From NCBI GenBank assembly GCA_014871385.1, contig CM026426.1, positions 59,806,084 through 59,870,083 on the forward strand: a DNA stretch of 64,000 bases, written 5' to 3'. This DNA is from Ceratodon purpureus (Eukaryota; Streptophyta; Bryopsida; Pseudoditrichales; Ditrichaceae). A program made the translations under genes and the position numbers. Shown one piece after another: positions 2,747-56,175 of the stretch (positions are counted from its first letter, which is position 1; each line of letters opens with the position of its first letter). The notes beneath the pieces were generated by a model. The model did not search any database and was not told where the DNA came from. It was given only the letters and a program-made list of their open reading frames with translations.

Positions 2747-4258
2747 ATGGTTCTTGGCATGCCAGTTATAGTTAGAAATGACCAGTCTAACCAAACCGAG
2801 GAGGTCGGGGAGTTGCAATTAAAGGTTATAGAAAAGGATGGTTTCATTGCAGAGTTAAAAGAGACCATCCAAAAACTACGATTGGAATGAGCAGGAAAAG
2901 ATGCAGTAATATCAGATTTGCGCAATCAATTGCAAGAACGAGAAAGACCTCAGTCTTCTCAAGCCAATGATATACCTGTAGTTCAAGATCCAATGTTGGT
3001 GGATGAATCTTACATCAACAACAAAGTTGATGTTGCAACGGCCGATGTGTTGAAGAATATTTCCACACCAGCAAAACAACGACGGGTTGGAGTGATATTG
3101 CCTCCACTAGCCCCATACGCGCGACCTTTTGTGGACATTGATGGACCATTAAGTCAAGATTCCTTGTCATTTCCACCCAATGCTCAAACGGAAGAAGTAG
3201 AGACATTAATGAGAGCCAATGATGAATTGCGGCTCCTTGTTTCGATGTTCGCTAAATCATACTACGAGTGGAAAGTGGCAACCATTCTCAACGTTGATCG
3301 CGGCCGCCAAATCGCATTAGAGTTCAAGAAGATCAACGAATCGTACTTGCAACACAAGTTGGATTTTGATGTGAAGAACGCAACTTTGTGCCATGATCTT
3401 CAAATGAAGGAAGGAGTTTAAAGCAGAAAGCTTTGGCCAAATCCTCAACCGTGGGTGTTGGATGGTTCGAAACAATGTATGGTGTGTCTAAATCCATTTG
3501 GTCCGGAGGGTGGATGGGCAGTTGGATCATGTACCCACATGTTCCATCCAATGTGTTTAATTAACATATTTTTGGTTAGGAGATTTTGCCAGATGTGCAA
3601 ATCCCTGTTCCATGAACGCTTGTACGAGGTTTTTGGACTCACTCCATACATGCCACCAAGCCATGAGAGAAATCCCGAAAACACACCGGGTGAAGAGTAC
3701 CGCAATATGTGGGGGGAAGATTTGATTTGGAGTTGGCGGGTCCAGACTCACTCGGTCTTCAAGAGCAATGTAAGTGACGAGTTGGGGTGGGAGAATGACG
3801 ACAAGCAGATTGTGAGGGTGGCAAAGAAGATAATTGGATCAGCGAAGGAGGACCAAGAAAAACAAAATATTTTCTATCAGACTTTGAATGGATACTGGGA
3901 TGCGAAGCATAAGAAGTTCCAACTTGGTACGCACCTACAAGGCCTCATATGGAACAAGGAGGGGAACTTGATTATAGACAATGAAGGTCACGCCACTCTG
4001 ACCGCCCGAGAGGCAGTCCAAATGTCTCTTTCGGAGTGGAAGTATCTTTTCAGAAATGAAGCTGTTGACTTTCTTCTGGAGGAACACTCTCCACAGACAT
4101 TGCGTACATTGGCACAATTGAGGAACTCGCAAATCTTGCGTTCTCTCAGTGAAATCGATGGCCCATTTTGGCGGACACGGACGAGAGCCAGGCGCACCTT
4201 GACGCTGGACGATGGAGCGGGACCAAGTGGCACGGCGGGAGTAGATGCAGATGACTAG
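2747..4258 (+). pseudogene. Coiled-coil plus RING-like zinc-finger protein with two in-frame stops
   Basis: One reading frame runs from an ATG at 2747 to the TAG at 4256-4258, about 503 codons. It is broken by TGA at 2888-2890 and TAA at 3419-3421; protein-like sequence continues on both sides of each. The N-terminal 220 residues are a charged helix-forming, coiled-coil-like region. At about 3475-3600 there is a RING-like finger: CMVC, then C-T-H, then H-P-M-C, a spacer and CQMC. A basic and acidic C-terminal tail follows. RING proteins of this shape usually act as E3 ubiquitin ligases, but the spacing is unusual and no partner is visible. The family seems to be one I have seen in bryophyte genomes. 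The two stops make this copy probably non-functional unless an unseen intron removes them. Confidence 0.6.
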
Positions 4259-8761: not shown

Positions 8762-9416
8762 TTATTTGTTCTCTTCCAATTCATTATAATAATGATGGCA
8801 CATGCAAGCATTGTCACACCACACCCAACCAAAATTCCGGTTACATTCCTTTTAAGGAATTCTCACACCCCATTACTCTATAACATAATATAATGTTTTT
8901 TATAAAAATTTGATATTTTGGACATCTAATTATACACATCTAAAATATATTAAACCAAAAAATATTGCATACGACATGTTTGATTGTACCTTCTGGAGTA
9001 TGTAAAATATATTTCAAAATGGGAGTTTTAGTAATGTATGGTGTGAAACCTATTGGCTATTAATACTTTTTAAGGTTAAACTTGAATTTTATACATAAAT
9101 TTATACTTGTGGGCAAAATTTCATAGTTAAATATTTAATTTTACTTGTCCGGATCATTCCTTTTCAACTTTTTCAGAAACTGGGACAATATTCCTTTCCA
9201 TTCAAAAAAAGATTCATCTGGACAACAAAACCAATTCAAGTCAGTCAAAGTGAATTCTCTCATATACATGATAAGTATACCATCAACTTTTTACTACACT
9301 TCTCTCCAAAATATCTATGGTCAATAATTTATAAAATTTCAAATATAAGGGGTAGGGTAAAAAAGTAATGGGACAGTCCTTTTCGGTACCCGTACCAGAC
9401 CCACACCCACCACCTT

Positions 9417-9570
9417 CTTTCTAACTTCGGAGTCAAAATATCTTGAACTACTGCGCCGATTCATTGAGAGCTCCAAGAGAGGTGGAGAGACCTCACAGGA
9501 TTAGGGTTCCAAATGGTACAGAGTCTGTCCCCGCCTTATATACCCGGACACCCGGTTTAGAGATGGGCAT
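9417..9570 (+). repeat. Dispersed promoter-like repeat, copy 1
   Basis: The block runs from CTTTCTAACTTCGGAGTC through GAGAGGTGGAGAGACCTCA and TTCCAAATGGT to CTTATATACCCGGACACCC. It is closely related, in inverted orientation, to 19603-19757 and more distantly, in the same orientation, to 20351-20487. The TATATA near the end and the fixed landmarks suggest an LTR or other element promoter. No matching internal region was found beside it. Confidence 0.6.
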
Positions 9571-11296
9571 AAATCAATAGATAAAGGACCAGACCAGGAG
9601 AATAAGGTTAATACATCTGGGTGCACACTGATACAATGTGTAACGGCGATGGGTTGTAGCAGCAAAAACTGCCATCTATTTGCGGATATCCTCGACTAGT
9701 TAGTAGAGGCCATTAATCTTGAGAACATCGTAATGATTCTGCCTGTCAAGATATATACATCGAGTGCATAAAACTACGTCGATCTACTACATATAATGTA
9801 TCGAACCAAAGGCTCAACAGCGAAATTCTTGAAAAGAATCCACCAGAATCCCAAAACAAATCTAGAATTAACATATTCATTCATCTTTCTAACAAAAATA
9901 CTATCCAAGTTGGGTTGTCATTGACTGAGACGCGCTTTCTTATATACTACAAATCACTCCTCATTCTCAGCAGCGTAACACCCTACAGGAAATTTTTCTT
10001 AATGATTCAAGCGACCTCCCGTCGCGGAATCTCCCTGTAGCGAACCCTAGCGGGTTTTTTCGGCAATATTCCCGCCTCGTCAAAAAACCCGCTAGGCCAA
10101 AAAACCCGGGCAGCAAAATATTTTTTGAAATATTTTTTGGAATTTTTTTTCTAAAGATGACGAAAAAGTACTTTAAGCTTTGAGCTTAAAAATTTCCTCG
10201 AAGGTACAATATATTCTACTTTATTCTGTACAATTTTATTTTGAGGTACAAGTAGTTTACAGAAAATGATAATTCAATGTCAAAAGACAATTCAGTAAAA
10301 AACTCAAGTATTTCAACTTTAGCTGAAAATCACTTGGTTCAAAATTTGATTAAAAATTCCACATGATTGTCTGTAGGGAAATTCACAATTTACAGGGGGT
10401 CATTTACAAGTTTTTCCAAATGATGAAATCTATGTGAAAAACTACTTCTTTGATCTACATCTACTACTGCGAAAGTTACTTTACTGCGAACTACTTCTCA
10501 GAAAGCTACGTCTTCTGCGAACTAACAACCGAAGCCGAAGCTGGAACTGCAACTGTGCTCTCAACCTGAAACAATGAAAACAACAATCAAGTTGTAAGAT
10601 TACAATATACAATAAAAAACAAAGAGAGTAACTTAAAGATTGCATAATACAATAAAAAATATAAGACACATTTGAAAATAGTAAAGTACCTTGGAAAGTT
10701 TAGAAATGAACAATGCCACAAAGTTAGAATCAAAAGATCCATTAAAACTATAAAAGTTGCACCCCGATGCCGAGCCAAAGACGAAACCACCTGCATGTGA
10801 AGGAGAAACATGTTTTACAAGAAACTAAGTTTGTATTTTATTATAAGGGCAACATAAACACAGTTGTATCAAAATGAACATTTAAAAACTCAATAAAAAA
10901 ACTACCTCTTCAGTTTTCTTTGGGATCATGAATCCAGCCTTACGTTTGCAGATTCCAGCTTCAACCTGCATTACAAGGCAAATGTCAAAACATATAATCT
11001 AGGATGAATAGATAATTGCTAAAATGAAAACTAAAAACAAAGTAGAAAAAAACCACATTCAGACACTCACATTTGGCGCTACACCTTCATGGAGACCAGT
11101 CTAAACTCCATCTTCAACCTTCAAGGCATTTTCAACCTTCACGGTGTTCTCAATTCTCACGGTATTCTCAACCTTCACAACACCACGTTCCTACATCCAA
11201 CAATATGATACATTAGAAACTAAAATTAGAAACTGAGTTATAAATCCAATTTTGAAGAAACTGTGAAACATAAACTCAAGAATAGTTAACTACAAA
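9571..11296. other. 3' flank of the recombinase gene with a perfect 15-bp inverted repeat
   Basis: I see no convincing exon here. At 10046-10060 the sequence CCTAGCGGGTTTTTT is perfectly inverted at 10082-10096, with a 21-bp loop. The region 10480-11290 contains short motifs such as CAACCTTCA repeats (11115-11180) but no clear coding exon. The end of a mobile element carrying the recombinase gene could lie here but cannot be placed. Confidence 0.5.
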
Positions 11297-12816
11297 TTAC
11301 AGATGAATATTTATCTTATTCACAGTAGCCTTCTTCACTTGAGATAGCACTTCAGCATATTTTTTCCTATCGCCAGATATGATTCGCTCGCAGGTGTCCA
11401 TCTGCAATTTACAAGGGTTAGCTTTGTACTGATTGTATGATTTGACATCCCTGTGCCCCGTAACCAGCATTGTCTTATCTGTGGGTATCTGAGCCTCCGC
11501 CATTCGAGTAATTCCCATTCTCCGGGGAGTCTTGTTGGTGAGCTTGCCATCTCCAATAACAATTCGTGCATATCATTCAATAAATTAATTGTGTTAGAGA
11601 AAAGTAAATTCGAAATATCCAGAAAAATCTCACAAATGTTAAACTCAAAAACTTAACTTCAACTGAAAAACTAAAAAGAAACTGACCAGGTGTAGATTCA
11701 ATCAAAGTGCGCACAGCCTTCCCAAGAGTGTTCTTCCCCACAGCACGCTTTTGAAACCAAACAAGATCCTTGACTTTGAAACCAGACTTAGCTCTCAAGA
11801 AAATCGGATGAGGATTTCCCTGGAATCTGGCCTCCAATTCAGCAGGGGTAAATTTAGGCCACCGCTCCGACATTAGCTTGTAAGTTTGAATCAAGTCTTG
11901 ATCTGAGCAATCGATGCTGTGCCGAAGGGAATGCTTCGAGCAATGCTGAATATCCATTTCGTAAGTCTTAGAAAGACTGGGGTTGTATCTGCAACTCACA
12001 ACAATATATCAATCAATTAGTAATACCATCTGGCATCAACCAGGCCCTTGCTACTCCTTGTAGAAAATCCAGAAAAAACTCTACTTGAGTGAAAACACTA
12101 AGCAACACACAAAAAACCTATTGACTAATTTAGCAAAGTAATATAAATGGATACAGAACAACCAAAAGGAAGAAACTAAATACCTTAGAAATTCAACTCC
12201 ACCTTCAATTAGAATCTAAAACTGACCCATGTGAGTAGCTCGCAACTCATCTTGACCACGTATGAACAAATTTCTACAAAAAAATTAGACAAGTCGAAGA
12301 ATCAGTCCGTTTGGATTCGAAACTGAAGCCGCGTCATAGTTAAGAATAAGAACTTCCTCATCTCTGGAAAGAACATCAGAGGTGGAAGTTTTTATTCCAA
12401 GCCCACGCCCGAAAGACCTCCTCACAGATTCGGTTACTGCAAATTTCACCCTACGATATCTAGGATCCAACATAATATTGAATGGGACCTCAACGGCGGA
12501 CGTCCTTTGCAAGCGGATTTCTTGCTGAAGCCGAATAATACGGCCAATGGCTCGTATCATGCATTGCAACCTGCAAAACCAAAAATGCAAATTAGAAAAC
12601 GAAATTAGAGTTACTAAGTTTTAAAAACATAAAACTATAAATAAAATATGTTAGAAACTACTGAAACAAAGTACAAAGATAAGAATAGCGGACGTACAAA
12701 CGCAATTGGAATGATCACTTTCATGACCACAACATCAACATAAGCATACATTGCCATTGAAAAACCCAACCTCCAGCAAAATCAAAGAATCAAACCACTG
12801 AAGGAAACAAGTAGAA

Positions 12817-12834
12817 TTAACCCCCCCCCCCCCA
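12817..12834. repeat. Poly-C tract in an intron
   Basis: A run of about 15 C lies in the intron between the exons at 13317 and 12570. A second long poly-C run lies at about 16902-16917, beyond the 5' side of the same gene. Confidence 0.8.
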
Positions 12835-13176
12835 ACAGATAATAAAACCGGCACTAAAAATAGAGTTGAATTACTACACTAACACAGTAGAATTACTACA
12901 CTAACAGATAATAAAATCGGCACTAAAAACAAAATCAAACTCAATGCTACAATCACAAACCTCCATCTCTATCCTCTATCAAATTCAAACGAACAAGTAA
13001 ACAAAAACACCCTTATATGAATCACCGCTACAACACAAAACCCTACGCACTGATCTAAACTCTACGAGCAAACATCGCTCAACCACAATTGCAATCACCA
13101 GCCACTCCCGAAACTCCAAACTCTTCACCTCGTTCAAGTGCCTTCAAATCGACTACACTTACAAAAAAGAACACCG

Positions 13177-13288
13177 CACAAATGAATCCAGTAGAACAAA
13201 TGAAACCAATAGAACAAATGAAACCAGTATAACAAATGAAACCAGTAGAACAAATGAAACCAGTAGAACAAATGAAACCAGAAGAACG
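13177..13288. repeat. 18-bp minisatellite in an intron
   Basis: About six copies of AACAAATGAAACCAGTAG with single-base variants lie immediately downstream of the splice donor at 13317 of the recombinase gene. The tandem array makes repeated Val/Leu/Ser open frames on the minus strand that are artefacts. Confidence 0.85.
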
Positions 13289-14442
13289 ATGTAGAAGACA
13301 AAAACTAAAGACTTACAATTGAGGACCGTAGAGGCTCCCGTCCTGTTTCGTGACTTGGAGCACAAATTCGTGAAGAATTTCAACAAAACCCCAAATGTCA
13401 GCTTCCTTTGACAGTTCTCCAATTGTCTTCTCGGTGGAAATCCCTCTGAAACGCCTCCACTCGTCAAAAGCGTTCCTGGCCCAAGTCTCCGAATGTTGGC
13501 TCCGTCTCTCACCTCCCATTGAGGTATTTTTCAATTCATTCTCATCCAGTTCACGAAACCTGGAACTAGTTTTCACAGGGCCTACATCAAACCAACTGTA
13601 AATTAGAAACAGAAAACAAACTCAATCTAAACAAGAAGTTCTAAACAGAAAGTTCTAAACAGAAAACAATCAGTTAATAAAAATTAGAATCAACTTCAAT
13701 AATAAGCAACTTAAAAAAAGGACGAACGTGAAGTTTTCTGGTTACTGTCGTTGTTGTTGTCTTCAGCATCGTCGTTTGTATCATCTTCATCTATTGGGAA
13801 ATCTCCACTCTGTGGAATAAAAATGTTGTCTGGATCATCCTCCTCGTCATCATCCTGATAATACTTGTCTTCTGCGCGGCAAACATCCCCGTCACCATCC
13901 TTGAAATCCTCTTCATCATCTTTGTCATCCGCATGCACCGCAGAGATCAACACTTCATCGGGCGACCTTGTAATCAACTCCAACAAATATGTTAGAAATT
14001 ATCAAACACAAAATAAATCTAGGTAGGCAATAAGATACGTGAAGCAAATTGCAATGGAAAATCTATATAAAAAACTGATTACCTAGAATCACCTCCTCAG
14101 AAACCACGAGAAGCACCTCCTCCTCAGGCGAAGCTGGAATAACCTGCACTGGAATTCGCTGCTCCGGAACTGCGGGGAGCATCTCCTCATCTTGAACTAC
14201 ACATACAAAAGAAACGTATAAGTAACATTCAACAAAGAACAACAGAAACAGAAAAACACAAAATCAACTGAAAATTATTAACAAAGACACTAAACTATAC
14301 CTCCGTAAAATCTAGACACTCTAGGATCCCGGATATAATTGTATACAAGCAACCTCCGAGCCTCAGCTTCTCGCCAACTGTAACTATAGACGACACCTGA
14401 ATCTGGAAAAGACATAAAAACAAAAATCAGATTCAATACAGC

Positions 14443-14486
14443 GCTGCCGCGTGGCTTCAGCGGCCTTCGGCCGCACATGGCCCCTA
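14443..14486. repeat. GC-rich palindrome-bearing repeat, copy 1
   Basis: The block GCCGCGTGGCTTCAGCGGCC, then TTCGGCCGCACATGGCCC, recurs almost unchanged at 14898-14942. Each copy contains a GCGGCC..GGCCGC palindrome. This one lies between two exons of the recombinase gene and is far richer in GC than its surroundings. Confidence 0.75.
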
Positions 14487-14897
14487 AGCTTCATCTACAT
14501 ATCCATGTTCGCCATCTTGAAGGACTCTACGACCATCCGCTCCCGCAACAACGTCCACCTCACCACGACGATCCAATTCTATATCAATACAAATTCAGTA
14601 AACAAAAATTAATAATTATAAATTTCATAAATTACATAGAACAGAAAAAATCAAACAAATATCTACAGCAGGAACTCCAGATGCAATACCTGAATCATCT
14701 CCAGATGCAACGCTATAAACTCCCAAAGGCTCGTACATTGATGAATCGTTAATATCAAACGAATCGACACTGTCACCTCCAGAAACTGCAAACACATGAA
14801 CAAAATAAATTAGAAGCTGAAACAAATAGAATACAATTTACAAAAAAATGATACAAAAAAACGACTATTAATAATAAAAGATTTCATACGACCATGC

Positions 14898-14942
14898 GTT
14901 GCCGCGCGGCTTCAGCGGCCTGCGGCCGCACATGGCCCTTAA
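14898..14942. repeat. GC-rich palindrome-bearing repeat, copy 2
   Basis: Near-identical to 14443-14486, in the same orientation and about 455 bp away. It lies in the intron between the exons at 15048 and 14785. Confidence 0.75.
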
Positions 14943-16245
14943 AACCAATTTAAACCAAAAACAAATTAAACATACACAAAAACAGATTACCCAATTTTCT
15001 ATTTCTTCCATTTATTACAATTAATTAGTGAATGTATGATAACATACCTTTCATGGCAGTTATGTCTTCAACTTCCACTAATCCTTTGCTGACGATATTA
15101 CTATTATCCTCTTTAACGACCTTAGAGAATTTTAAATTATATTTTAGTACAAAAATTACATTACAACACATTACAACTCATTCTTTAATTAAGTTTCATT
15201 TCTTTAATTATAAACCAAAGATATAAAACACGAATACTTACCTGAGTCGTCTGTGTTTGGGAAATGTATTCTTCCAGTACTTGGTTGCACAAGATGATGT
15301 CCAGTTCGTTGCTCACGTTCTTGACATTCTCTCGAATCTTCTTGTCCTTTTCGTAATCACGCTCCAGTTGCTCCAGAAGCTCATCCTCCGCAACTTCAAC
15401 TCCGAAGCTCAAACTATCCGGCATCACCAAGCCTAATCAAACAATTCACAAGAACAAGTTAATAAACAATATACAAAGCATTTGAGAATAAAATAAACAT
15501 CAAACTAGAAATGAGATTAAAGTGGAACAAATATGAAACTAAACTAAGTTTACCTTGGGAGCAGATGACTTCGGTCTTGACAGATAAATTGTTGCTTCGA
15601 TCACGTAGATTGAAAGAGGGTAGAACCAGAATCTTCGGAATAGGCTCCAACTCTGAATCAGTCGCCTCCAGCAATCTCTTTCTTTCTGGTGATGACCTCC
15701 TAGAATCCTCCATCTGCATCAAACAAAAAAAAGAAATATGAGAAAAGAAAATCAAGAGAATGAAAAACGAATTACAATTAACAAGACTGGACATAAACTC
15801 AAATGAATAAAATCTGGATATGAAAAGCTAAACATATAAAATATACCTCGATCAAACTGACTTGTAAGATAAACACCCGTTGTCGAAACTCCCGCTGCCG
15901 CTCAGTTATAAAAACCTTCTGTAACAGAAAAACAATAACACCACATAATTAAAAGCAAGTTAGAAGATAATCAATAACTGAAAGTACAACAATAAGATCA
16001 ATGTTCAAATGCTACACATCTACCAAAGCAACGTGTCAAAAATACAAGAAATTACGTAAAAACCGTAACAAATACTCTAAAGTCTCAATCGCCAAAGCTG
16101 CAATCGCAATCACAACCAAAGCCGCAATTACCTGCAACAAAACCACAGCAGAATAAGAAAAACATAAGCAACTCTAAAAACCAATCACGAAGAGATAGAT
16201 ACACAAAAATAAAAGACTGAAAATATAAAAACACAAAAGCATACA

Positions 16246-19285: not shown

Positions 19286-20254
19286 CTCTAAGAGTATCCC
19301 CTAACTGTAAGCCCCTAAGCCCTTAAACCTCCATCCGCTTTCATCCGAGTTATAGGCTTAAGGTTCCTGTAAACTCCCGATTGTGATTTCTAAACATTTT
19401 TCTCATCCAAACCGAGACCTCGATAGGGCCATGGTCCTGTAAATTTCCCAACGGTTTAGGCCACCCTTAAACCGCTGGAAATAGAAAATTTCAAGCTCTC
19501 AACTTTCCATCTTCTTTCCACTATACTTGGGTTTGGTTTTCTTTTGTAACTTGTTGAAGGATTTGACAACAACCAAGTACTAAAGAATAGTTTACAGATC
19601 ACTTTTAAACTGGGTGTCTGGGTATATATGACAGGGACAGACTCTGCACCATTTGGAACCTTATTCCTATGAGGTCTCTCCACCTCTCTCGGAGCTCTCA
19701 ACAAACCAGAGCAGTAGTTCAAGATCTTTTGACTCTGAAGTTAGAAGAGGGAGGTAACCCTGGGAGTGAGTGGGGACTACCGGTTTAAAGGAGGACCAAA
19801 ATTCCACTCAATCTATAATTGTGATGTTACTGTCCCTCGAAGGACCTTTATGGGCTTACACTCAAGGAACGAATGGAGATGCTTTAAAGGTTCTTCGACG
19901 GACAGTAACATCACAATTATAGGTTGAGTGGAATTTTGGTCCTCCCTTAAAGGTGACTTGTATACTGTTTGTTTACTTGGTTGTTGTGCAACCCTCCAAT
20001 AAGTTGCAAAAGGAAACAAAACCCAAGTGTAGTGGAAAGAAGATAGAAAGATGAGAGCTTGAAATTTTCTATTTCAGACAATTTAAAGGTGGTCTAGACC
20101 GATTTGAAATTTATAGGTCGATAGCCTTTTAGAGGTCTCGGCCTAAATGAGAAAGATGTTTAGAGGTCATCACTAGGACTTTACAGGACCCTTACGCCTT
20201 TAATATAGATGAAATTGGATGGAAGATTAAGGGCTTAAGGGATGCTCTAAGGTG
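19286..20254. repeat. Long imperfect inverted repeat (foldback-like)
   Basis: The outer arms are about 19286-19578 and 19975-20254. They share, in opposite orientation, landmarks such as GAAATTTTCTATTT, GAGAGCTTGAAATTT and CCAAG.GTAGTGGAAAG. Inner arms of about 66 bp (19781-19848 and 19891-19956, containing GGACCAAAATTCCACTCAA) pair with only a few mismatches. The left arm alone carries a further block, 19603-19757, that is copy 2 of the dispersed promoter-like repeat. No coding region was found inside. Confidence 0.65.
19603..19757 (-). repeat. Dispersed promoter-like repeat, copy 2 (inverted)
   Basis: Reverse-complemented, it matches 9417-9570 through CTCTTCTAACTTCAGAGTC, GAGAGGTGGAGAGACCTCA, TTCCAAATGGT and CATATATACCCAGACACCC. 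Identity is roughly four in five by eye. Confidence 0.65.
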
Positions 20255-42304: not shown

Positions 42305-45300
42305 TTACTCTTCAATTTCGTTAGAAGAGTCTCCATCAGTTTTGTCTGCGCTGACTTCTTTGAGGTTTTGTTCTGCGTACATGACTTCATTTGGCATCAC
42401 ATTCCTACCAGTCGGCAACTCCACCGGATCCTCTTCCGGTGAATATCTCTCTGGAACTATTGCCTCATAATCATTGTCACTTCCTATGCGGAATATACTT
42501 GTTCTACTGCTTGCATCTTCATCAATGGACACTCTTTTGGATCTCGCTTCCTTTCGCAGGACTACCTTCCATCTAGGGTCTTCCGCGGCATCAGCATAGA
42601 ACTCCTGCTCACATTGAATTGGGAATGCAAAAGACTCTGGACCTGGACCACTTAGTGTGTCGAAATTAGCCAAAGTGAAGCCCCACTGATCAGTCTTAAT
42701 TGTAGCATGAGGTCCAGGGTAGTTTGCCTTTATCTAGCTTCCCGCAAATAAAACTGCTTTATGTCCTCTGTCTTGTAGGGGCTCACTTCTACGAGCATTC
42801 GGTGACTCACTCTCGTAGTGACCAGGGTAGTGCAATTCCACTATCTCTTTCAACTCCCCTACATACTCCAAATCTGCTACTACAGGGCTTTTGTCTCAAA
42901 GCCCATTGATACAAGGTCTCTTGAATATCGCACAAATTCCACTATCGTAGGTTGGTAAGGACTCCTCTACGCTCGCCACTTTGAAATGATTACCTTGAGA
43001 ATACATGCTTCTGTACCTATTGGCCGTGCTTAAGGGAAGTCTTGATGATTCCACAACTAGTGGATCCAATCGAATACCAAAATCCTCTAATTGGTCAACA
43101 TCTTCTCGCAGCCAGTCGCTGAATCTTGGAAGATCTGCTAACTCCGGTGGTATTGTCAGTCGACGTCTTCCGTTTTTCCTCCTGCGATGCAGACATCGCC
43201 ATATTTTCTGATCTGTGGTCCTTTCCTCCACTGTATCTTGATATCGTCTAAACAATCGCCAAACATAGTTAGTTCACATTTGAATGTGATCATTGGTAAG
43301 AACCGATGCTGTATAAATCCTAAAGTCCATTAATCCAAGCGAAATTAATATTATTCTACCTGTACATTGTTATCAGGAAGTTTTTACCTAACATAAAAAG
43401 GAATGCATAAATAAAAGTGTTTACATATATTAGTCTGAATTTCTAAGCCATATCAAACTGGTGCCGGTTGATGCCATCTCTCTAACACTGCAAGTTCACT
43501 AGACACATACCATCACCGAGATACTAACGGTCATGTCTTTACATATTTGTGAAACCAATCATGCTACCCAACCAATAATCATGGATGACATCTTATACTT
43601 CAATAGCAGTCAAATAAAATATGTATAATTAAAAAAAAAAAAAAAAAAAAACAATAGTTTGATTTCCCGGGAACACCCGAACTTTGTATGAAAACAAAAC
43701 ACTATCAAGCGCAGACTTTCTACACCTGCATTCTATGTCAACCCTGCTGACAGGTCCCTAAGAAATGCGTACCACATAACTCCAAAGAATGATGCACTGC
43801 AACAGTTGAGTTAACCATGTCGACACTAAAGCATTATGCAACAAATATTCAAACCCCAAATCAATACATATCATGTCTGCGACCGTATCTAGATTAGACA
43901 AGCCTACCAGTGTTTATTCTGATATCTGTAAACCAAGCTAACACACACTCTAATATGTATGAAAAAATGCACAACAGATAATTTGAATATGCATGAATTA
44001 ACAAAGATAACATGCGTAATTCACATGAATAACCAGCAAACTCACCGCCGCCAAGGCTCCAGATGAGTGGTGTTGTCCAGAACAAGATTATGCATCCATT
44101 GTTGTTCATTTTCATTCAACGGTCTTTCTTTTGGTTCACCCTCAAGTATGTCTTCCAACATGGATATGTCTTCACTGTTGTCCCATACCCGTCTCGATGT
44201 GCCCTTGTACTCGGACATGTACTCTGTTAGGAATCCAGAAGCCTCTTCAACGGAATATGATTTCGCCATATTGCCTTCAAATTTTGCTCTGTTTCTTAGA
44301 CTTCCCTTTAATCCTTTCAGCCACCGCTCAAATGGGTACATCCAGCGAGTGTGCACAGGGCCACATAAGAAAAGATCCTGGACCAAATGACGCGGAAGGT
44401 GGAAAGTAATATTGAAAAACGCAGGGGGGAATTCTTTCTCCATGGTACACTGTATTTCGGTAACATCCCTCATCATCTGCTCCTCTGTGTCTGAATCAAG
44501 TGATTTTGCGCATATCTTTCTAAACAGCCGGCTGATGCGCATGATCAGTCCAACAACCTTTGCATCCCCAACTCCTTGCAAACAAAGCGGTAGTACCTGC
44601 TGCAGCAGCACATGTAGGTCATGGGATTTTAATCCTCTCAATTTTCCCTGGCTCAGCTTCAAGTGGAGGTTGCTACAGTAACGGGTTGGCATTTTTAAGC
44701 GTCGTTGAGTTTCTAGAACGGTATGCTTGTGCGGAGCAGACAACACGTATGGTGCGTCCGACATGTACAACCTTCCTGAGTCTCCGGCTCGCCTTAGCCA
44801 TAGATGTTTATGGATTCGCCGGTTCTCTAGGTCCATTCTTACCGAAGGTGTATCAATTTCTCCAAAAAGCATTCGGAGAAGACTATCTGCGAGATTCTTC
44901 TCGCAATGCATAACATCCAACACATATCGAACTCGCATTTCCTGTCACATGTCCACAAAGAATTATAGTTTGCAGAAAGCATGTTAAGCGATTCGAATTT
45001 AAATCAATAGAAACATATAAATTCCGCAAATCAGAGTATTACAAGTAGGAACACAAACTGACTCAAATGACATGACATTGAATAATGTGACTTTGATTTC
45101 CGTTCTAAGAGCATTGGAATACTGAAATTATGGTGAAACGGACCTGTAGCTACGATGTTTCATGTTCTTTGAAATGCATGGATTTTATTTTAATTTATTA
45201 GCGGAGATGAAGTCCACTTACCTCCTAGTACGGTAGTCGATATAAAATACTCAATCGCTTTACTCCATGTCGCTTGACAGGGTCGCCATCGTTGTTTGGT

Positions 45301-47011
45301 CTTCCTCCATCGTCCAGCCATTTCTGACGCTCCTGTGCATACTCACAAACCAATGTACCAGACATGCAAGAACACTCCCCTCGATCTTCTGTCTCATTGT
45401 TGAATGCTTTTCGTACTCTCCTTTATAGATGGTTTGCATCCAAATTCCTCCTCGCTCCTAGGTAGACTACTTTGTTAATTGCTAGCCGACAGCTTTGACC
45501 ACAAGTTTGCTCTCCACAGTGTAAGCAGCCTGCGTAGCCTTTTGTAACTTGCCCTGAAATCAATCCAAGAGCTGGGTAGTCTCCAACTATCCACATTAGT
45601 ATTGCTCTTAGATAGAAGCTTCTAGGTTCATTAGGGATGGAACAGTCGACTGCCTTGACACCATTCCACAGCTGAAGCAGATCATCCACAATGGGTTCTA
45701 AAAACACGTCTACCGTGGCTGATGTTGGCGACTTGGGGCCTGGTATAAGCAGAACTAAAGAGACAAAAAATTTCCTAGTCACTAACCAAGGTGGAAGAGT
45801 ATAAGTTATCAACAAGACAGGCCAAGTTGAGTAGGTTGTTGACTGCATGTTGAACGGATTAATCATGTACAAGCATAGAGCAAGTTGTAGAAATCTAGGG
45901 TCTTCTGCATAATTTCTCCATCTAGACGATATCCACCTCCAAATAGGACTATCAACAACTGAACGCATGACATTGGTCTCCGGCTGATATTCCATATGGT
46001 ATTGAAGTAATTTTGCGATTTCAGGACAACTGAATAACCTTAGGAGACGTTTAACTATAGAAAAATACCTCACAACCTTGGCAGGAAGAGTGCTTGACCC
46101 GGCCACGAACTTGCTCTTACCGCAACCAGGATATGTACATTTGTCCAAGTGTTTAGTATCTTTCCAAAACAACATGTGTCCATCAGGACAACAGTGAATG
46201 TCTTCGTTTTTCAAACCCATTCTCATCAAGAGGGAACGGCATTCATAGGAAGTCATAGGCAATCGATTGTTTTTAGGAAGGATATCGCTCCACAGAAAGC
46301 GCAGCAACTCGTCAAGAAAACTATAAGGTACTCTGTAAAGGTTGCACATTGTTAGAATCACAATGATGAACTTCAACCTGTTAGTTCTACAACCTTTGAC
46401 GAGGCGTTTTCTTGATTCTGCAAATAATTTCTCCATCTCTTCCGTAGTTTGGCAGCCGTCATCTTCGTCAGGCTCGATGACATCGTCCTGTTCTTGTTGC
46501 TCCTAGTATATATCGTTTCCTCTTGCAAATGCGTCTTCGACCATGCGTTGGTGATCGAAGCCGTCGTCGTCGGAATCATCATTTGTTAACACATATTCGA
46601 CGTCTTCCAGGTCTTCCCTAAACTTTCGTGGTATTCTCTGTACATGCATCAACGACAGCTTTGTTTAACAAAATAAACCTAGGTATAAAAACAGTCGGTA
46701 AGCACGCCATGTTTTCGATTTTAGCTTCAAATGCTGAAAGAGTGACTCATTTTCATTCATGATCTAATAAAGCAAGTCATGAGTAAGGTATGAATAGATG
46801 AAAATTGATAGGCAACCATATGACATACCAACAAAGACTTGGTCAAATAAGGGTCTCTCTTGTTTTCTCGATGGTGTTGAGCTATGATTCTTACTGAATG
46901 TACTTGGGCCCCTCGGTACTCTGAACAAGCACATGGGTATTCGCTGAGCCTCATACTCTTTGCAAATGACCTCTCCTTATGATAAGCCCGGTGAAGCTGC
47001 GAATCCGACAT
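42305..47011 (-). pseudogene. CACTA (En/Spm) transposase, tnp2 type, five in-frame stops
   Basis: Four exons join in phase: 47011-46829, 46637-45222, 44941-44046 and 43247-42305, giving 1,146 codons including the terminal stop, normal for a plant TNP2. Exon 1 carries a short Cys-containing N-terminal motif (CACSEYRG). Exon 2 has the Transposase_21 core with LLIPGPKSPTSATVDVFLEP and LRAILMWIVGDYPALG. Exon 3 has LDVMHCEKN and the DUF4218 block with MEKEFPPAFFNITFHLP and VHTRWMYPFERW. Exon 4 has the C-terminal block with GFTLANFDTL. Premature stops: TAG 46505-46503, TAA 45425-45423, TAG 45227-45225, TGA 42898-42896, TAG 42736-42734. The stop at 45227 sits where the family has Trp (LPYW). Terminal inverted repeats were not located. 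Confidence 0.9.
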
Positions 47012-47608: not shown

Positions 47609-48278
47609 TATTGCCGACGATACCATGGCAACCAAAGAAGACTCGGAAGATCCAGACATCAAGGCAAGACCTGGCCAGCTAGGACATAGACTACTTAGAG
47701 GCTAGGCCAGCTAGGACCAGGAACAGAATCAGCGGTGCTAACTGCTGTTCCACCGTAGGACTAGTCAGACGCTAGTACTAATAGGAATGGACAGTCGAGG
47801 AAGACACTCTTCACATTTTGAGTCCAGTGCTGCTCTCAGACTTTGCTGATGTATCCTGCCTTGCCCTCTTAGAGCCTGGGGATTTTCTCTAACACCATGG
47901 ACATCATGGTCCCCCTTTGCTCACCCGTGCCCCTCTGCCTATAACTCTCCCCTGTCTATCTTCATGTCTCGGTTGCTTGGTTGTTCTTAATATCCGTTAT
48001 GCATGCTTGTATGTCCTTAGACTGTACTCCTTCACTTCTCCTTGTTTTTCCCGAAGTCCCTTGGTAACCAGGGACCACTAAGGAAGAACTTTTGCAGCTT
48101 GACTTTCCCTAAACTGATCTCTCCCTTTCCCCTAACTTGAACATTGCGTCTCTTGTTTGTTAGAGCCATGTCCTCTGCCCAAGTCCCCCTTACCACAGTT
48201 CTCCGGACTCCCTGATTTCCTTGACCACACCACACTACTTGGTCTTAGGCATGACCAATCCCCTAACCCGGACTAACA
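47609..48278 (+). repeat. 5' LTR, 670 bp
   Basis: Begins TATTGCCG, where the 3' LTR has TGTTGCCG, so the canonical TG has mutated to TA. Ends CGGACTAACA. About 97.6% identical to 56176-56845. Confidence 0.95.
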
Positions 48279-48281
48279 TTT

Positions 48282-48299
48282 TGGCGACCATGCTGGGGA
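48282..48299 (+). other. Primer-binding site
   Basis: TGGCGACCATGCTGGGGA lies 3 bp after the 5' LTR. The TGGCGAC..TGCTGGGGA form resembles the PBS that I recall for Tat/Ogre elements (tRNA-Arg). Exact tRNA pairing was not tested. Confidence 0.75.
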
Positions 48300-48309
48300 T
48301 GGTATGCTG

Positions 48310-49492
48310 AGACAACAAACCACGAACTTACAAAGAAAAACTAAGACATTATACCACCACGAAAGGTTGCTGCCGAAAGAAACAATGAGGCTGAAGAAGC
48401 CATACAACAAGATGATCTTGACGCCACCAAAGAATTCCTTCAATGGATGAAGCAGCAAATGACAGACCATGCCGCTAAAAACGATGCAACAAATGCTAAA
48501 CTAGAGATGTTGAGGATACAATATTAGAACCTCCAAGATGGTAGGACTCAAGAAGCTGCCCAACCAACACCACAGGGTTCAAGAGCCCAACTAGAAGCCC
48601 TGAGATCCACGTCCTTGCCTCGAGATAATCATACGGCAGCCACTCAAAGCGTAGGAGACCTCAAATATACCAAGTTTTCCAAAATCTCCTATCCAGTATT
48701 TGATGAAACCGGCGACCCTGACTGGCATGTTCGCAGATTCAAAGTCATTGCACGCACCAACGCTGTTACCTATACTGAAGATTTGCAAAACCTTTTCGGG
48801 ACCACACTCCAAGGAAATCATATTAATTGTACATTGATTTTGAAACCGAGAATGCCCAAGCCAGCTGGGAAGACATGGAACGGAGTTTTTTATATAAATT
48901 CCAAAAACTAAAAACCAGCTCAGAAATCCTACGAGCACTAGGCAGTATCACCCAAGACAGAAATGAACATGTTGATATTTTCTATGACTGGTTCAAATAG
49001 TGAGCTGACAAGCTTAGCCAACGGCCAGAAGAGGACTACCTATGTGAATGGTTCAAAAAGGTGCTCCTTCCGTGGATCCAATAGGGCATCGTCATTCGAG
49101 GAGTCAAGACGCTCAGCGACATCCTTAACGCTGCCAATGACATCAGTCAAGAGTTGATTGTGTTCAATAAAACACAGGCACCCTTGTTGCCACTACCCAC
49201 TTACCGCCCAGACAATAGGCCTGCCCCTGCCATGTGTAACACCTGTGGTAAAGTACACAGTGGCCGGTGTTGGTTTGCCCCTAGCAACAATCGCTCCGAG
49301 GACTCCCGACGACCAAGACCTGCCATGGCCGCCATGTACACCGAGGAGGTTAACGTGGATGCATTTCAGCCTAGCCGTAGCGATGCCTGCTAGGAATGTG
49401 GGTCGCTTAGCCACCAATGGAGCCAATGCCCCATCCTAAGACAACGTTGGGCCGACGCCCGCCTAGAACCAGCAAATTTCTCAAATTAGACC
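48310..49492 (+). pseudogene. gag: gag region of the LTR retrotransposon
   Basis: A leader helix with KEFLQWMKQQMTDHAAKN is followed by a capsid-like core (FDETGDPDWHVRRFKVI, then after a frameshift near 48825 the piece ASWEDMERSFLYKFQKL). A zinc knuckle of C-x2-C-x4-H-x4-C form lies at about 49388-49430, and a TAG (49391-49393) replaces its second residue, probably Trp. Other stops lie near 48526, 48998 (TAG then TGA) and 49082. Gag would form the virus-like particle in the cytoplasm. Confidence 0.8.
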
Positions 49493-52400
49493 ATGGACAG
49501 CTCAAGGAATCCAACAGCCCCCCAGCGCGGTGGGGTCACACTCACGGAGGTCCATGGTACAGAGACCAACGTCTCAACCATCAGTGCAGCAATAGTAAGT
49601 ACGAGATCCAAAGCTACCCTGCTCGACCATGTGGTAGAGGCCAGAAAACCTCTCCCTGATCAGCATTGGGAGAGACTGCAAAACATACGCAAGGATTTAC
49701 AGAAGGGGTTAGAAACACCTTCGTTTAATTCTACCCTTCACCAAGTCCTAAATAGCACCAACGTTACCATCACATTGTCAAAACTCTTACAGAATAGTCC
49801 TGAACTTCACCAATACCTACAACAAGCTATGCTCCAAGAATCCACGGAAAATCCAACAAATATAGAAGTCAATGCCACCACTATTGACCCAGTTGCGGCT
49901 GTAATACATTTACAGCTAGGAAGCCATGAACTTACCAATGTACTCGTGGATGGTGGCTCAGGAGTAAATGACATGAGCAATCATTTACGCCAGAAACTAG
50001 GACCTCCCACCCCTAAACTTGCCCAATTCATACTCCGAATGGCCAATGATGCTCCGGTGACGCCTTTAGGAATCCTGTCCAGGCTACCCATTACCACACA
50101 CGGCGTGTCAACTCCAGCTACCTTTGTAATTGTTGACATGCCTAACAGTAGCAACTTTCCCATTATACTAGGTCAACCATGGTTACGAGACATGGACGCC
50201 ATCCATGATTGGTCCAGAAACCAGATCAGGATACATTGCCAAGGGAAAACTGTGATAATCCCAGTGCACAATTGCATCACAAGGGCGAGTGCCAATCAAA
50301 TAAGACATTCGGCTCGAACACATTGGAGAGAAGGCTTATTCCAAAAACAAGAAGCCATGGTTTTCCAGGCCAACCCATAATTGATACCATTAGTAGAAAT
50401 TTATTTAGCTAGCCTAATAACCGACCAAGAAAAATTGGACATACCTCCACATTTCTCCAAAGAAGTCATAGAAATCGTGGCGGTCAGCGCCACTCCTGCA
50501 GTCCAAGCCTTATAAAAAGAGGTAGTAAATGGTTGGTCCCATGGTGCCAAGGACAAAGTAGAATTAATAAATCTGGGAACCGTGGAAGAGCCAAAATTCG
50601 TTAAAATCAACGCTGAGGCCACTGGGCACATCAAGCTGGCAGCTATCTCATTATTCCATGAGTACCACGACATCTTTGCATGGGGACACGAGGATCTAAA
50701 AGGCATACCTAGCTCCCTGGCCGAACACACTATTGACTTAGTGCCTAATGCAACACCAGTGCAACAACGGAGATATAGGATGAATCCGAATTACGCATCA
50801 AGGGTAAAAACAGAGCTAGACAAACTCCTTGCAGCCAAGTTTATCTCACCAGTTGACTCCGCCCCATGGTTGTCTCCGATGGTCATCATCCTCAAGAAAA
50901 ATGGAACATTATAGATCTGCGTAGATTTTCGAAAACTAAACGCAGCCACTAAAAAAGACCATTACCCATTACCTTATATAGAAGAGATAATCGATAAGGT
51001 TGCTGGCTACGAAATGTATTTGTTCTTGGATTGCTTCTCAGGATATTACCAAGTTGCCATGGCTGAACAAAATAAAAATAAAACTGCATTTTCCACGCAA
51101 TGGGGACCTTACTAGTTTGAGCGCATGCCTTTTGGAGCAAAAAATGCCTCCACGACCTTCCAATGTGTCATGGAATTAATCTTTAGGCCATACCTCAAAC
51201 GATTTTTTAGGATTTACTTAGATGATGGGACAGTGTGTGAACCAATGCAGGACCATATCACACACCTGAGGCAAATTTTCCAAGCCTACCATGCAAATGG
51301 CGTCAGCCTAAATGCAGATAAGTGTATGTTCCTCTTTTTTTCCGGAGTCATATCGGGGTATATTGTCTGCAAGAATGGGAAATTGCCAGACCTTGAAGAA
51401 ATCAAAGATATACTCAATATATCACCACCCACAGATCAGAAAGGTATTCAACGACTGCTTGGGTTGTCACAGTTCAATCGCATCTACATTGAAAAACTAG
51501 CACATATCACCGCACCAATTACGGCCTTCAACCATGCTAAGTATACGTACCCCCAAGACTAGACCCCCGAAGCCCAAGTTGCCTTGAAAAAATTAAAACG
51601 GCCTACTCCAATGCCCCCATTTTAATTGCCGCTGATTGGTCCAAGCCCTTCCATGTTCACACTGATGCATCAAATATAGCGGTCGGGGTTATGTTAGCAC
51701 AAAACATTAATGGAAAACATGATCAACCAGTTGCTTACGCAAGTCGACTTTTAAACCAAGCAGAAGAAAATTACTCGACTACCGAAAGGGAAGCCTTAGC
51801 CATGATTTATGGTGACAAAAAATTTTGCTACTATCTGCTAGGAAATAAGTTCCACTTCATGGTCGACCACCATAGCCTGTCTTACCTAGTTAATCAACCT
51901 TTAGTTACAAGTAGGGTTGCTAGATGGAAAACGATACTTTTGGAGTACGATTTTGAAGTTGTTTATGTTCCTGGAAAATTGCATGTTATAGCTGACTACT
52001 TGTCCCGAGACTCCATGGCTCCTGAGGAAGGCATGGATGATTCATTCAACGAACCCTATATATAGTCAGCTAGCTTTAACATAGACAACATCCAAGATTG
52101 GAGGGGATATCATGACTTATATGACTACCAACAGCGTACCTGACCACCTGACCGGCACCCAAAAAATTAGCTTTGTACGGACCACGTTGCCGCACACGGT
52201 CATCCAAGATCAGCTCTATCAACGAGGCCTTGACTTGGAAATCAGGCTGTGCGTAGAAGTTGAAGAGCAACTTAACATCATCTCCCATCTCCACGACGGC
52301 CCTGCAGGTGGACACCAAGGACCTGACACCGCGATAAAGAAAATTATTACTGCAAAATACTGGTGGCCTACACTTTACAAGGACGTCTTTGATTACGTCA

Positions 52401-53400
52401 AAAATTGCCACGCCTGCTAGGTTTCCACAACAAATTTTCAATATCAAGGCAAGGTACCATTAAAATCTATACCCGCGCTCGGGTGTTTCCAGCGTTGTGG
52501 GCTGGATTTTGTAGGCCCAATTCGCCCTGCTACCAAGAAGGGCTACAAGTATATCCTAGTGGGAACAGACTACACTACAAAATGGGTAGAAGCTAGACCT
52601 CTTAGGACTAACACTGCCGTGGTCACCGCTAGCTTCATTTATGAAAACATAATCATCCGTTTTGGCTGTCCATTGGAAATCATCTTAGACCAAGGCTCAC
52701 ACTTCGTTAATGCTGTAATCGAGGATCTGCTAGACAACCATATTATTAGGACCATAAACATAGGACTAGCACCTTGTATTACCCCCAAGAGAATGGCCAA
52801 GCAGAATCAACAAATAAAACATTAATAAACATGTTGCGCCGGTTCATCCACGCCAACCAATCTGATTAGGACGATTGTTTACTAGCCGCCCTTTGGGCTT
52901 ACCGAGTTGCCACTAAAACCGCCACCAAGATCACTCCCTTTAAAATGGTATATGGGACTCAACCGTTGCTACCTACGGAATATGTGGCCCTAACATTCTA
53001 GTCATTACACCCACGAGATTACACGCCACACAGGGTCCTTGCAGCCCGCTTGGAAGACATCCACCACTTGGAGGAAGTTTGCACAGTGGCCATCAAAAAT
53101 ATAACTACCAAGCAGGGACTAAGTGCCAAATATTTCCAAGCATCCCAGCCCCCCAGACTGTTCCAAAAGGGGGATCAAGTGCTCTGGTGCCCAAGGGATC
53201 CAAAAATCCGTAAGTCCAAATTCGAGTCCATTTGGCATGGGCCATACCGCGTACAATCAGTCCTCCCTAATAATACAATGCTACTGATAAACAATGAGAA
53301 TTATGACAAGCATGCGACCATTGTAAACGCAACTAAGCTCAAACACTACTACACTAATTCTTCAATTATAACTCCCAAACAGAGTCTTGGCGAAATTTAT
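49493..53400 (+). pseudogene. pol: pol region: protease, reverse transcriptase, RNase H, integrase
   Basis: Protease: VLVDGGSGVN at about 49945, then ILGQPWLRDMD. Reverse transcriptase: SPVDSAPWLSPMVIILKKNG, FRKLN, FERMPFGAKNAS and the catalytic YLDD near 51217. RNase H: HTDASNIAVGV near 51659 and the YSTTEREALA and DHHSLSYL blocks. Integrase: HHCC finger (HDGPAGGH..CHAC), then catalytic Asp in GTDYTTKW, Asp in LDQGSHF and Glu in PQENGQAE near 52790, reached only after a frameshift, then a GPYRV C-terminal block. In-frame stops include TAA 50378, TAG 50912, 51113, 51560, 52063, 52418, 52867 and 52999. Frameshifts lie near 51590 and 52770. All catalytic residues I can place are still present in the broken sequence. 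Confidence 0.92.
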
Positions 53401-56129
53401 ACTACCTTGGAAGCCGAGGCTGAAAACAATACACAATCCAACACCATGGATTCCCAAGGCCAGTCCCAGCAAGACCAAACTATCATGGAAGTCCATGTCA
53501 GCCACATTCAAATCCTACCCTTACTTCCCTATGACATGGACCAACCCAGCCAGCTAGGAGACAATATAGCTCAAACCCACTCTAGGGGTCGCATCCATAG
53601 GGAGCCGCCGCCACCTTCCACGCTAGGCCTTGCTCAAGTGAATTTCCTCCCAGGCTGTCCAAATCTACGCTCTCCTATCCAGATCGTAGCACCACATCCA
53701 TGTCGCGCCGCCACCAGCCCTTTTCCTCCTCTTCAATTTCCCCATTCCCCTCCATATCTCACATTGTCATGTGGTCTTCCTTCCCCTTGGCAACACAATT
53801 TTCATAGCTACCATGGCCCCCCTTCCCCAGGCTCTATCTTCTTCGCGCAGTCCGTAGCTCGCAGCACTTGCAGTTGGTGCTCCTTGCCCCACATAGTTCA
53901 GACACACCATAGCACACGACAGTTAGAGAGTGATTCACATAGCAGGCAGCAGCAAATGGCATCCATGGAGAGCAGAAAGATTCACCCGCCCTTCTACGTA
54001 CCTCGCATGATCCTGGAATGGAAGAGGCGCCCGGACATCATATGGACAACACGCATAGGGCTCCACAAGTATTGGACGTTGTTGGAAGGCAAGGTGGATG
54101 TGGCGCGATGCAAGACGTTTGTAGCCTCAATGCGGGAGAGAAGTGAGGACAAGCCGCATCCCTCGGGGTTTGTGGAGGGCGTACTGGTCCAGTACTCCAG
54201 TCGCTACCTTCACAAGTGTTTTGGCTGGGACGGCACTGGCGTCACGGAATGGAGCCCCACGTGTACCTACCCGAAGCCCAACCTTGCTAAGCGCGTCCAG
54301 GGATTGCAGCTGCGTGATGACAAGCATGGTAGGAGGTACGATATATTTGCATTGGGGAAGATCTTTGAGGAGCCATGGTTCTCACGGATGCGGGGTATTC
54401 TTAGCCAGGTGTACTTCAAGAACAATTGTAATGGGATAACTCCCGACCAACTCACCTTGGTGCTGATGGCGGATAACGGTGAGCGCATCAACAGGGGGCT
54501 CATCGTGGAGGAGAATTTTCGGGTGCACCTACGGGGCTATCGACGGAATGAGAATTACCACAGCCCCATTGGCCCACTCTTGACAGCATACATTGCGCAT
54601 TACCTTGCATTCCTTGCTCGCAACCAGCAGGGCCCTGTCATGGGTACGTTCTTAGATGTGCAAAGGGAGATCGCGGCTGCAGCAGCTAAAGATCCATCAC
54701 GGCCAGGACCCAGCAAATGTCCTTGCGCCACGGAGAACGTCACCGATGAAGCCGTGGCCATCTCTTTCGTCCAAGGATCCCATGCCACGTAGCTACAGCA
54801 GCAGAGCCTCGCCTTGACAGCCTCCCTCGACGCCCTACAACGCTGGGTACGCACCACGGAGCACAAATTGGAGACCCTGCGTGCCAACCAGATAGAGAGT
54901 GAGGAGCGGATCAAACAAAAAGCTGCCTCGGCTATCCACACAACACAAGAACAGGCTTGAAAAGCCGTGGAGGACGCGCGCGTGGAGATGCAAAGCCAGA
55001 TCGAGGAAGCCCAACAGACTCTAGTGAATCTCCGCGACAAAATTTCTAATCAGGAACTGGAGCTAACTACATTACAAGAGCAGGTGGACACACTTACCAG
55101 GGAGAAGGCATGGGCATTGGAACGCGCGGCCAAGCTAGAGCAGCAAAACAACGAAATCCTCAACCGCTGCAAGGCCTTGACCAACACCAACAAAACTTTA
55201 ACTCAGGGGATGGGCGCTCAGTCTCCACCAGCAGTGACCATTGGAGACATCGATCGATTGCAAGAAGAGAAGCGCGCTGCAGACCAGGCCCAAGAAAGCT
55301 TTGAAGCTAACAACGTGGGGTGGGTGCATGTCCATGCTTACTAGTTATTGCTCGCAGCACCTCCAACCGAGGCCGAGCCCACACAGAATTCTTGGACAAC
55401 TGTATTGACAACGCCTTGGTCGCCGTCAAACTCGATCAATCAGACCATAACTTGGAGAGCCTCGACTTGGAGGCAATGTCACCACGGATGCTGGAGGACC
55501 CAATCTTAGACCCTGTCCCAGGAATGGAACTCCCCGCACATGCTCTCCTCGACTCGGCAGTACCATCGAGCTCGGCAATTCATCACACAGGAGGACAGGC
55601 TGATCGTGTTGACATCCTAGAGTACCTCACCGATGTCGAGCCCAGGCCCCCGCCATCGCCACGCTCCATTCCTCCTGTCCAAGCTAGTCCAAGCTCCCTT
55701 GCTTCCATGGTACACTCCCGACCCAGACCTTTCAAACATCACAAAGAATCCCTATAAAGAATCGAAGTAGAATTTAGCTTAAAAGAACAGGCGTGTGATG
55801 TGAGTGACGCCGAGGCGGAGCTAGAGACCGCGGTTTCTAAGGCCAAGAAGTATTTTTCCGCCAACCCAGACTTCGCAGCCCTTTACAGTAATCCCAAGGC
55901 CAAGCAGGTCCAATGTCCTGCATGTAATAGACTTCTCGGGAAAACAATATACAATGTGTACGAGCATGCAGTTACATCTAGATCTTTGCATCATCTAATC
56001 CACAGGGGTGTTGCCGCAGCCATAGCCGCCCTCTACGGAGATCAAGCCCCACCTCGGCGCCACACCCAGCTCTCGTGTGAAGAAACTCGGCTAGATCAAC
56101 GACCTGCTCACCGCCGCACCCGTGGCTAA
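53401..56129 (+). pseudogene. Extra region after integrase: transposon-type domain, coiled coil, CCHH-like finger
   Basis: The frame continues from integrase without a break to TAG 54790-54792. A Pro/Gln-rich linker (53430-53930) leads to a globular block of about 230 residues with GVLVQYSSRYLHKCFGWDG and ITPDQLTLVLMADN, which resembles the plant retrotransposon domain called Transposase_32 or putative plant transposon protein. After the TAG (and TGA 54958-54960) a long coiled coil follows (heptads from 54790 to 55300, for example LVNLRDKISNQELELTTLQE). A frameshift near 55320 leads to an acidic/Pro-rich stretch, TAA 55755, and a finger at 55914-56005: C-P-A-C, then H-A-V and H-H-x2-H-R-G. 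The finger recalls the zf-XS type that accompanies coiled coils in SGS3-like proteins. Function unknown. Confidence 0.6.
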
Positions 56130-56159
56130 CCTACGCAATCCGAGGACAAATTGCACTCT

Positions 56160-56175
56160 CCAAAGGGAGGCAAAA
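56160..56175 (+). other. Polypurine tract
   Basis: CCAAAGGGAGGCAAAA directly precedes the 3' LTR, the expected site of plus-strand priming. Confidence 0.85.

Follow-up and report, generated by a model that had tools for sequence, protein, structure and literature searches.

A broken, intron-rich tyrosine recombinase gene in the moss Ceratodon purpureus, probably of a Crypton-type transposon family

Does a land plant carry a recombinase of the Crypton kind, and does such a gene belong to a mobile element or to the host? We addressed this question in a stretch of 64,000 nucleotides from the moss Ceratodon purpureus (contig CM026426.1, positions 59,806,084 to 59,870,083), hereafter called the window. 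A multi-exon gene for a tyrosine recombinase of the Crypton/DUF3504 kind lies on its minus strand at about 10506-15713, and the copy in the window is broken by two in-frame stop codons. Comparison with its relatives indicates that it is probably an inactive copy, rich in introns, of a Crypton-type DNA transposon family in mosses. A previous reading, made from the letters of the window only (the sequence-only reading), had stated that Cryptons are known from fungi, stramenopiles and animals and not from land plants. This agrees with the 2011 Crypton survey, which, in the part available to us, reports them from animals, fungi and stramenopiles and lists no land plant (PMC3212892). Another source, also available in part, treats Cryptons in general terms in its account of plant transposons and gives no example from a plant (PMC11630846). 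Within the open-licence literature, Crypton was not found together with Ceratodon or with names beginning Physcomitri-, and earlier reports may exist elsewhere.

The results showed that exons 9-12 (13581 down to 11297, minus strand) splice in phase into a 401-residue stretch containing all the named motifs, in the order KQDGSLYGPQ, RGQDELR, VGKNTLGK, NKTPRRMGITRM, TGHR and SYNQY. These exons had been described as the last four of the gene; their in-phase joining holds, but they are not the last, as beyond its recombinase the Ceratodon protein P0016 has a tail matching a further C-terminal exon of the window (10690-10794; 60% over 35 residues, E 2.8e-9). On the N-terminal side, the join of exon 8 to exon 9 was matched by the Ceratodon protein P0002 (61% over 101 columns, E 1e-39). 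P0002 also has the acidic stretch of exon 8, in accordance with the acidic part previously noted before the recombinase, and we infer that this stretch is disordered. The junction between exons 10 and 11 matches the annotated relative P0010, and exons 1-4 join in phase by splice signals alone. The 3' end of exon 12 probably lies near 11320. In the best splice model there were five stops, two in exon 10, two in exon 7 and the terminal one.

Exon 10 is where the window copy fails. Eight moss-type relatives (P0010, P0015, P0017, P0018, P0019, P0020, P0021 and P0023) have a single open frame across both stop sites; among the proteins that we call Crypton-type, P0003 aligns through the TAA site with a gap at the TAG site, and P0004 aligns through both. 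Database proteins are stop-free by construction, and this comparison shows the continuity of exon 10, not the rarity of stops. The separate small exon formerly proposed for RGQDELR was not borne out, the relatives showing one continuous exon at 12184-12570. Two ways of splicing around the stops were rejected. Splicing out the TAA would require a 17-base intron, and avoiding the TAG through a weak donor at 12222 would lose about a dozen residues present in 8/8 relatives. A genetic code in which TAA and TAG are read as Gln was not favoured, because the relatives are open at both sites under the standard code. The first stop, the TAA, precedes the Arg-I residue, and the window copy therefore cannot make a full recombinase.

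A single-sequence search with the window protein (E up to 1) gave three matches: P0001 (61%, E 1.6e-80), the Ceratodon purpureus protein P0002 (E 1.3e-22) and, at E 1.3e-3, P0003, which its source calls a XerD-type recombinase. An alignment search with the window, P0001 and P0003 (E up to 0.01) matched 26 of 6257 candidates, comprising 21 moss-type and five Crypton-type proteins; P0004, P0005 and P0013 are not independent evidence, because P0003 formed part of the query. Three moss-type matches came from Ceratodon purpureus, namely KC19_4G101700 (contig of 22.8 Mb), KC19_5G073600 (20.0 Mb) and KC19_VG314400 (110.5 Mb). All three are annotated as protein-coding and, judging by their locus names, they lie on chromosomes 4, 5 and V, respectively. 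Several relatives have exon ends at the same residues.

Some details of individual relatives were also observed. P0001 is identical over 64 residues to P0016, a protein of the Ceratodon V chromosome, and the two may be the same locus; P0001 and P0017 each lie on a contig of 2714 bases. Taken together, the catalytic exons 10-12 look unbroken in P0016, P0001 and P0017. In the more distant relative P0011 (51%), the frame runs on from exon 11 to exon 12 with no intron between them, which suggests intron gain or loss within the family.

We then compared the family with Crypton-type proteins at the profile level. The moss-type alignment had 15 rows, built from 20 of the 21 matches and the window. 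Against a profile of the five Crypton-type proteins it reached a probability of 97.2% (97.6% in a rerun; E 4e-12), and 97.3% with P0026 left out, compared with at most 2.3% in 100 column shuffles and 0.2% for the reversed alignment. A pairwise alignment of the window core to P0003 spanned residues 2-359 at 22% (E 6.6e-12 with a single subject). In Pfam, DUF3504 was matched by 7/15 moss-type rows and Phage_integrase by 2/15 at E up to 1. The best DUF3504 matches (E 3e-6 and 1.4e-5, positions 2-160 of 162) belonged to two rows joined from relatives, and the window core alone gave Pfam E values of only 0.083 and 0.022. P0003 and P0004 passed the Pfam cut-offs of both families, and PDB sequence searches returned nothing useful for the recombinase. 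DUF3504 is described as eukarya-specific in the available part of one source (PMC8371274). The Ceratodon relatives and the profile comparison thus support the earlier proposal that a land plant carries a tyrosine recombinase of Crypton/DUF3504 type.

The active site was examined wherever relatives cover it. The window and 8/8 relatives keep Arg-I, the window and 3/3 (P0001, P0011 and P0014) keep the KxxR of box II, and the window and 4/4 keep GHR with the Tyr, P0001 and P0016 being identical there. The second Arg of RGQDELR is lost in P0010. Box II has Lys in the moss-type family and His in P0003 and P0004, and P0004 reads TGHE. Of the R..R..H..Y set that the sequence-only reading expected among homologues, R, R and Y are thus kept wherever covered, whereas the His is replaced by Lys. 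Because this His belongs to the Crypton tetrad, we call the family Crypton-type and not a standard Crypton.

Several results weigh against assigning the family to Crypton transposons. The catalytic tetrad given by Kojima and Jurka, in the available part of their paper, is R-H-R-Y (PMC3212892), and the moss-type proteins depart from it in box II. No moss-type row, including the one at E 3e-6, reached the curated Pfam cut-off (best 27.8 vs 29.7 bits), and it is our own judgement, from Pfam and motifs, to call P0003 and its kin Crypton-type, a name that no source gives them. A second search among longer proteins only (408-1298 residues) found P0003 alone among 3930 candidates, and both AlphaFold models were too poor to use (predicted local distance difference test scores of 50.7 and 55.8). 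The copies are old and diverged, with no recent burst; seven exon-10 copies including that of the window differ pairwise by 13-32%. No convincing terminal repeats were found in this single copy when exact matches of at least 11 bases were sought, repeats of 4-6 bp being below reach. Finally, exons 4-8 gave no single open frame with the splice sites tried, and the previous count of about a dozen introns is plausible but not established while these exons are unjoined in phase.

The old divergence and the exon structure also suit a host gene family, derived from an ancient Crypton, that uses the recombinase fold for DNA binding and has spread by ordinary duplication, with the window copy as a pseudogene. 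The many introns, the shared exon ends, the acidic stretch with the conserved tail, and the protein-coding annotation of three Ceratodon copies are in line with this explanation, which we nevertheless regard as unlikely. The moss-type family keeps the catalytic Arg, Arg and Tyr, whereas the Tyr and the second Arg, whose loss marks domesticated genes, are gone from seven animal DUF3504 genes in the available part of the survey (PMC3212892). The locus names point to three chromosomes, stop codons interrupt the window copy, and P0010 is without an Arg adjoining Arg-I. The idea of a domesticated derivative therefore found no support for the window copy, with its two stops and the first before Arg-I, and is not favoured for the family, because the catalytic residues are kept and the locus names lie on three chromosomes. 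The kept catalytic residues, the diverged copies on three chromosomes and the broken copy are together better fitted by a transposon lineage.

Other sources of the recombinase were weighed by scanning more widely. Viruses, virus-like elements of protists and bacteria carry tyrosine recombinases, and acquisition from one of these could account for such a gene; it is very improbable here, as no relative was confirmed in 2.9 million viral contigs (moss-type and P0003 queries) or found in 84,980 bacterial and archaeal species (one genome each), in scans with short exact patterns that reach mostly close relatives. Across the six frames of 8-20 kb, Pfam scans at E up to 0.5 gave no match to a reverse transcriptase, an RNase H, an integrase or a DDE transposase. 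Domains split by introns can escape such scans, as did the DUF3504 of the unspliced gene itself; the reported absence of reverse transcriptase holds within this limit. The lone match was SPT5 KOW (E 0.023), which was taken as chance. As a positive control, a Ty3/gypsy element was recognised in the three plus frames at 48-54 kb by its reverse transcriptase, RNase H and integrase. The remnant of a DIRS/Ngaro-type retroelement that retained its recombinase alone is less probable still: elements of this type have the tyrosine recombinase fold in common with the moss gene, but the 8-20 kb scans matched neither reverse transcriptase nor RNase H, the introns argue against an RNA intermediate, and the profile match goes to DUF3504 proteins, in a comparison to which DIRS/Ngaro recombinases themselves were external.

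A Crypton-type transposon family is thus our preferred explanation. In the family protein, an acidic stretch comes before the recombinase, which has a core-binding part and a catalytic domain (DUF3504/Phage_integrase) with the residues R-K-R-(H,R)-Y; a C-terminal tail, also conserved, follows. Working copies would produce a spliced recombinase, which would bind the element ends and cut with its tyrosine. The element would then be excised as a circle and recombined into a new site of short homology, so that transposition would take place without an RNA step and without a DDE transposase. This circular excision and the recombinase-driven re-insertion follow the model proposed for Cryptons (PMC3212892, available part). 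More tentatively, and with some doubt, we propose that the family may form a distinct land-plant Crypton lineage marked by multiple exons, the KxxR site, the acidic head and the conserved tail, whose V sex-chromosome copy, open in the catalytic exons covered, may still move.

The positions of the exons, stop codons and active-site codons are collected in Table 1.

Table 1. Features of the recombinase gene in window coordinates
Feature	Position	Strand	Basis
Proposed exon 1, first ATG (MEDSRR...)	15554..15713	-	Splice signals and open frame; without covering homologue
Proposed exon 2	15242..15432	-	GT/AG, open frame in phase with exon 1; without homologue
Proposed exon 3	15048..15120	-	GT/AG, open frame in phase; without homologue
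Proposed exon 4	14690..14785	-	Splice signals and open frame
Possible exon 5	from 14578 downward	-	Donor site unsettled
Possible exon 6, not joined in phase	14301..14402	-	Splice signals only
Possible exon 7, not joined in phase	14083..14196	-	Splice signals only
Exon 8, acidic stretch with DPDNIFIPQ	13746..13977	-	Joined to exon 9 in Ceratodon P0002
Exon 9, core-binding part, KQDGSLYGPQ at end	13317..13581	-	P0002 tblastn 72%; P0022, P0024, P0025 in alignment A3
Exon 10, continuous: remaining core-binding part, Arg-I, ends EFL(R)	12184..12570	-	P0010, P0015, P0017-P0021, P0023
In-frame TAA in exon 10	12285..12287	-	Sequence; relatives open at same place
Arg-I codon	12258-12260	-	Exon 10
In-frame TAG in exon 10	12216..12218	-	Sequence; relatives open at same place
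Exon 11, YNPSLSK... to VGKNTLGK...ESTP	11687..11988	-	P0001, P0006-P0009, P0012
Exon 12: box II NKTPRR, TGHR, Tyr	11297..11550	-	P0001, P0011, P0014, P0016
Box II Lys codon	11531-11533	-	Exon 12, NKTPRR
Box II Arg codon	11522-11524	-	Exon 12, NKTPRR
Tyr codon	11426-11428	-	Exon 12
Proposed exon 13, VKVENTVRIENTVKVENALKVED, donor site unsure	11107..11190	-	Splice signals and open frame
Proposed exon 14	10906..10965	-	Splice signals and open frame
Exon 15, GGFVFGSASGCNFYSF...	10690..10790	-	Match to P0016
Proposed last exon and stop codon	10506..10565	-	Splice signal and stop

Within the gene, the motif psi-K-x-E occurs repeatedly in proposed exon 13, VKVENTVRIENTVKVENALKVED, and these repeats presumably resemble sumoylation sites. 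Two GC-rich palindromic inserts of 47 bp, 91% identical, were found at 14441-14487 and 14896-14942, in AT-rich and probably intronic DNA of the recombinase gene. Their 28-base core (up to 3 mismatches) occurs in the window only at these two places, with 0 expected from 100 shuffles.

Around the gene, an inverted repeat of 150 bp with 87% identity was found at 9409-9559 and 19606-19755. It was set aside as a candidate for terminal repeats and treated as a presumably unrelated dispersed repeat because its right arm lies within a separate foldback repeat at 19312-20241, the middle of which recurs inverted 10 kb off at 9409-9559. The Ty3/gypsy element (47611-56845, plus strand) contains several stops and has 668-bp long terminal repeats with 97.8% identity; within it, the open frame 53002-54792 gave a weak Transposase_32 match (E 0.047). 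A CACTA-like remnant with DUF4218, which we take to be TNP2-type, lies at about 44042-46502 on the minus strand. An open frame at 3422-4258 on the plus strand matched a RING-like zinc finger (E 9.8e-6) below the cut-off.

If a land-plant lineage is confirmed, it would extend the Crypton class to another major group and would bear on the choice between an ancient presence of Cryptons in eukaryotes and their sideways spread. With its KxxR active site, the family offers a variation of recombinase chemistry that can be tested. Ceratodon is a genetically tractable moss, and the apparently unbroken catalytic part on its V chromosome would make the excision of a plant Crypton directly testable.

Compared with known systems, the moss family resembles the animal Cryptons (CryptonA/CryptonI, Kojima & Jurka 2011) in having a DUF3504-kind tyrosine recombinase without reverse transcriptase. 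P0003 and P0004, which we placed near the animal Cryptons by judgement, share with it KxDGxxxxPQ, RG...LR, VGKNTL, TNxxxR, TGH and the Tyr. It differs from animal Cryptons in its moss host, the box II Lys in place of His, the multi-exon gene and the conserved C-terminal tail, animal Cryptons having no C-terminal domain according to the available part of the survey (PMC3212892). An extra C-terminal region is present in the CryptonF transposons of fungi and oomycetes, as in the moss family, but no GCR1_C match was obtained in Pfam scans of the window core, the moss-type rows or the six frames of 8-20 kb. CryptonF elements have 6-bp terminal direct repeats, and none were recognised at the window, where repeats shorter than 11 bases escaped the search; the available part of the survey gives short (4-6 bp) direct end repeats for fungal Cryptons and none for animal ones (PMC3212892). 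The domesticated genes KCTD1, KIAA1958, ZMYM2/3/4, QRICH1 and WOC share the DUF3504 domain with the moss family, and some are likewise multi-exon; as far as that part of the survey goes, all are without the catalytic Tyr and the second Arg, both of which the moss family keeps (PMC3212892). The nearest DUF3504 protein reported there from the green lineage, and the only green-algal one named, is the mitochondrial YP_025778 of Pseudendoclonium akinetum, likened to the moss family by description and left unanalysed in the part available (PMC3212892). Finally, the ALOG proteins of land plants are plant proteins derived from a tyrosine recombinase element, namely from DIRS1-type recombinases, according to the available part of their description (PMC3537659); unlike ALOG proteins, the moss family has the catalytic domain.

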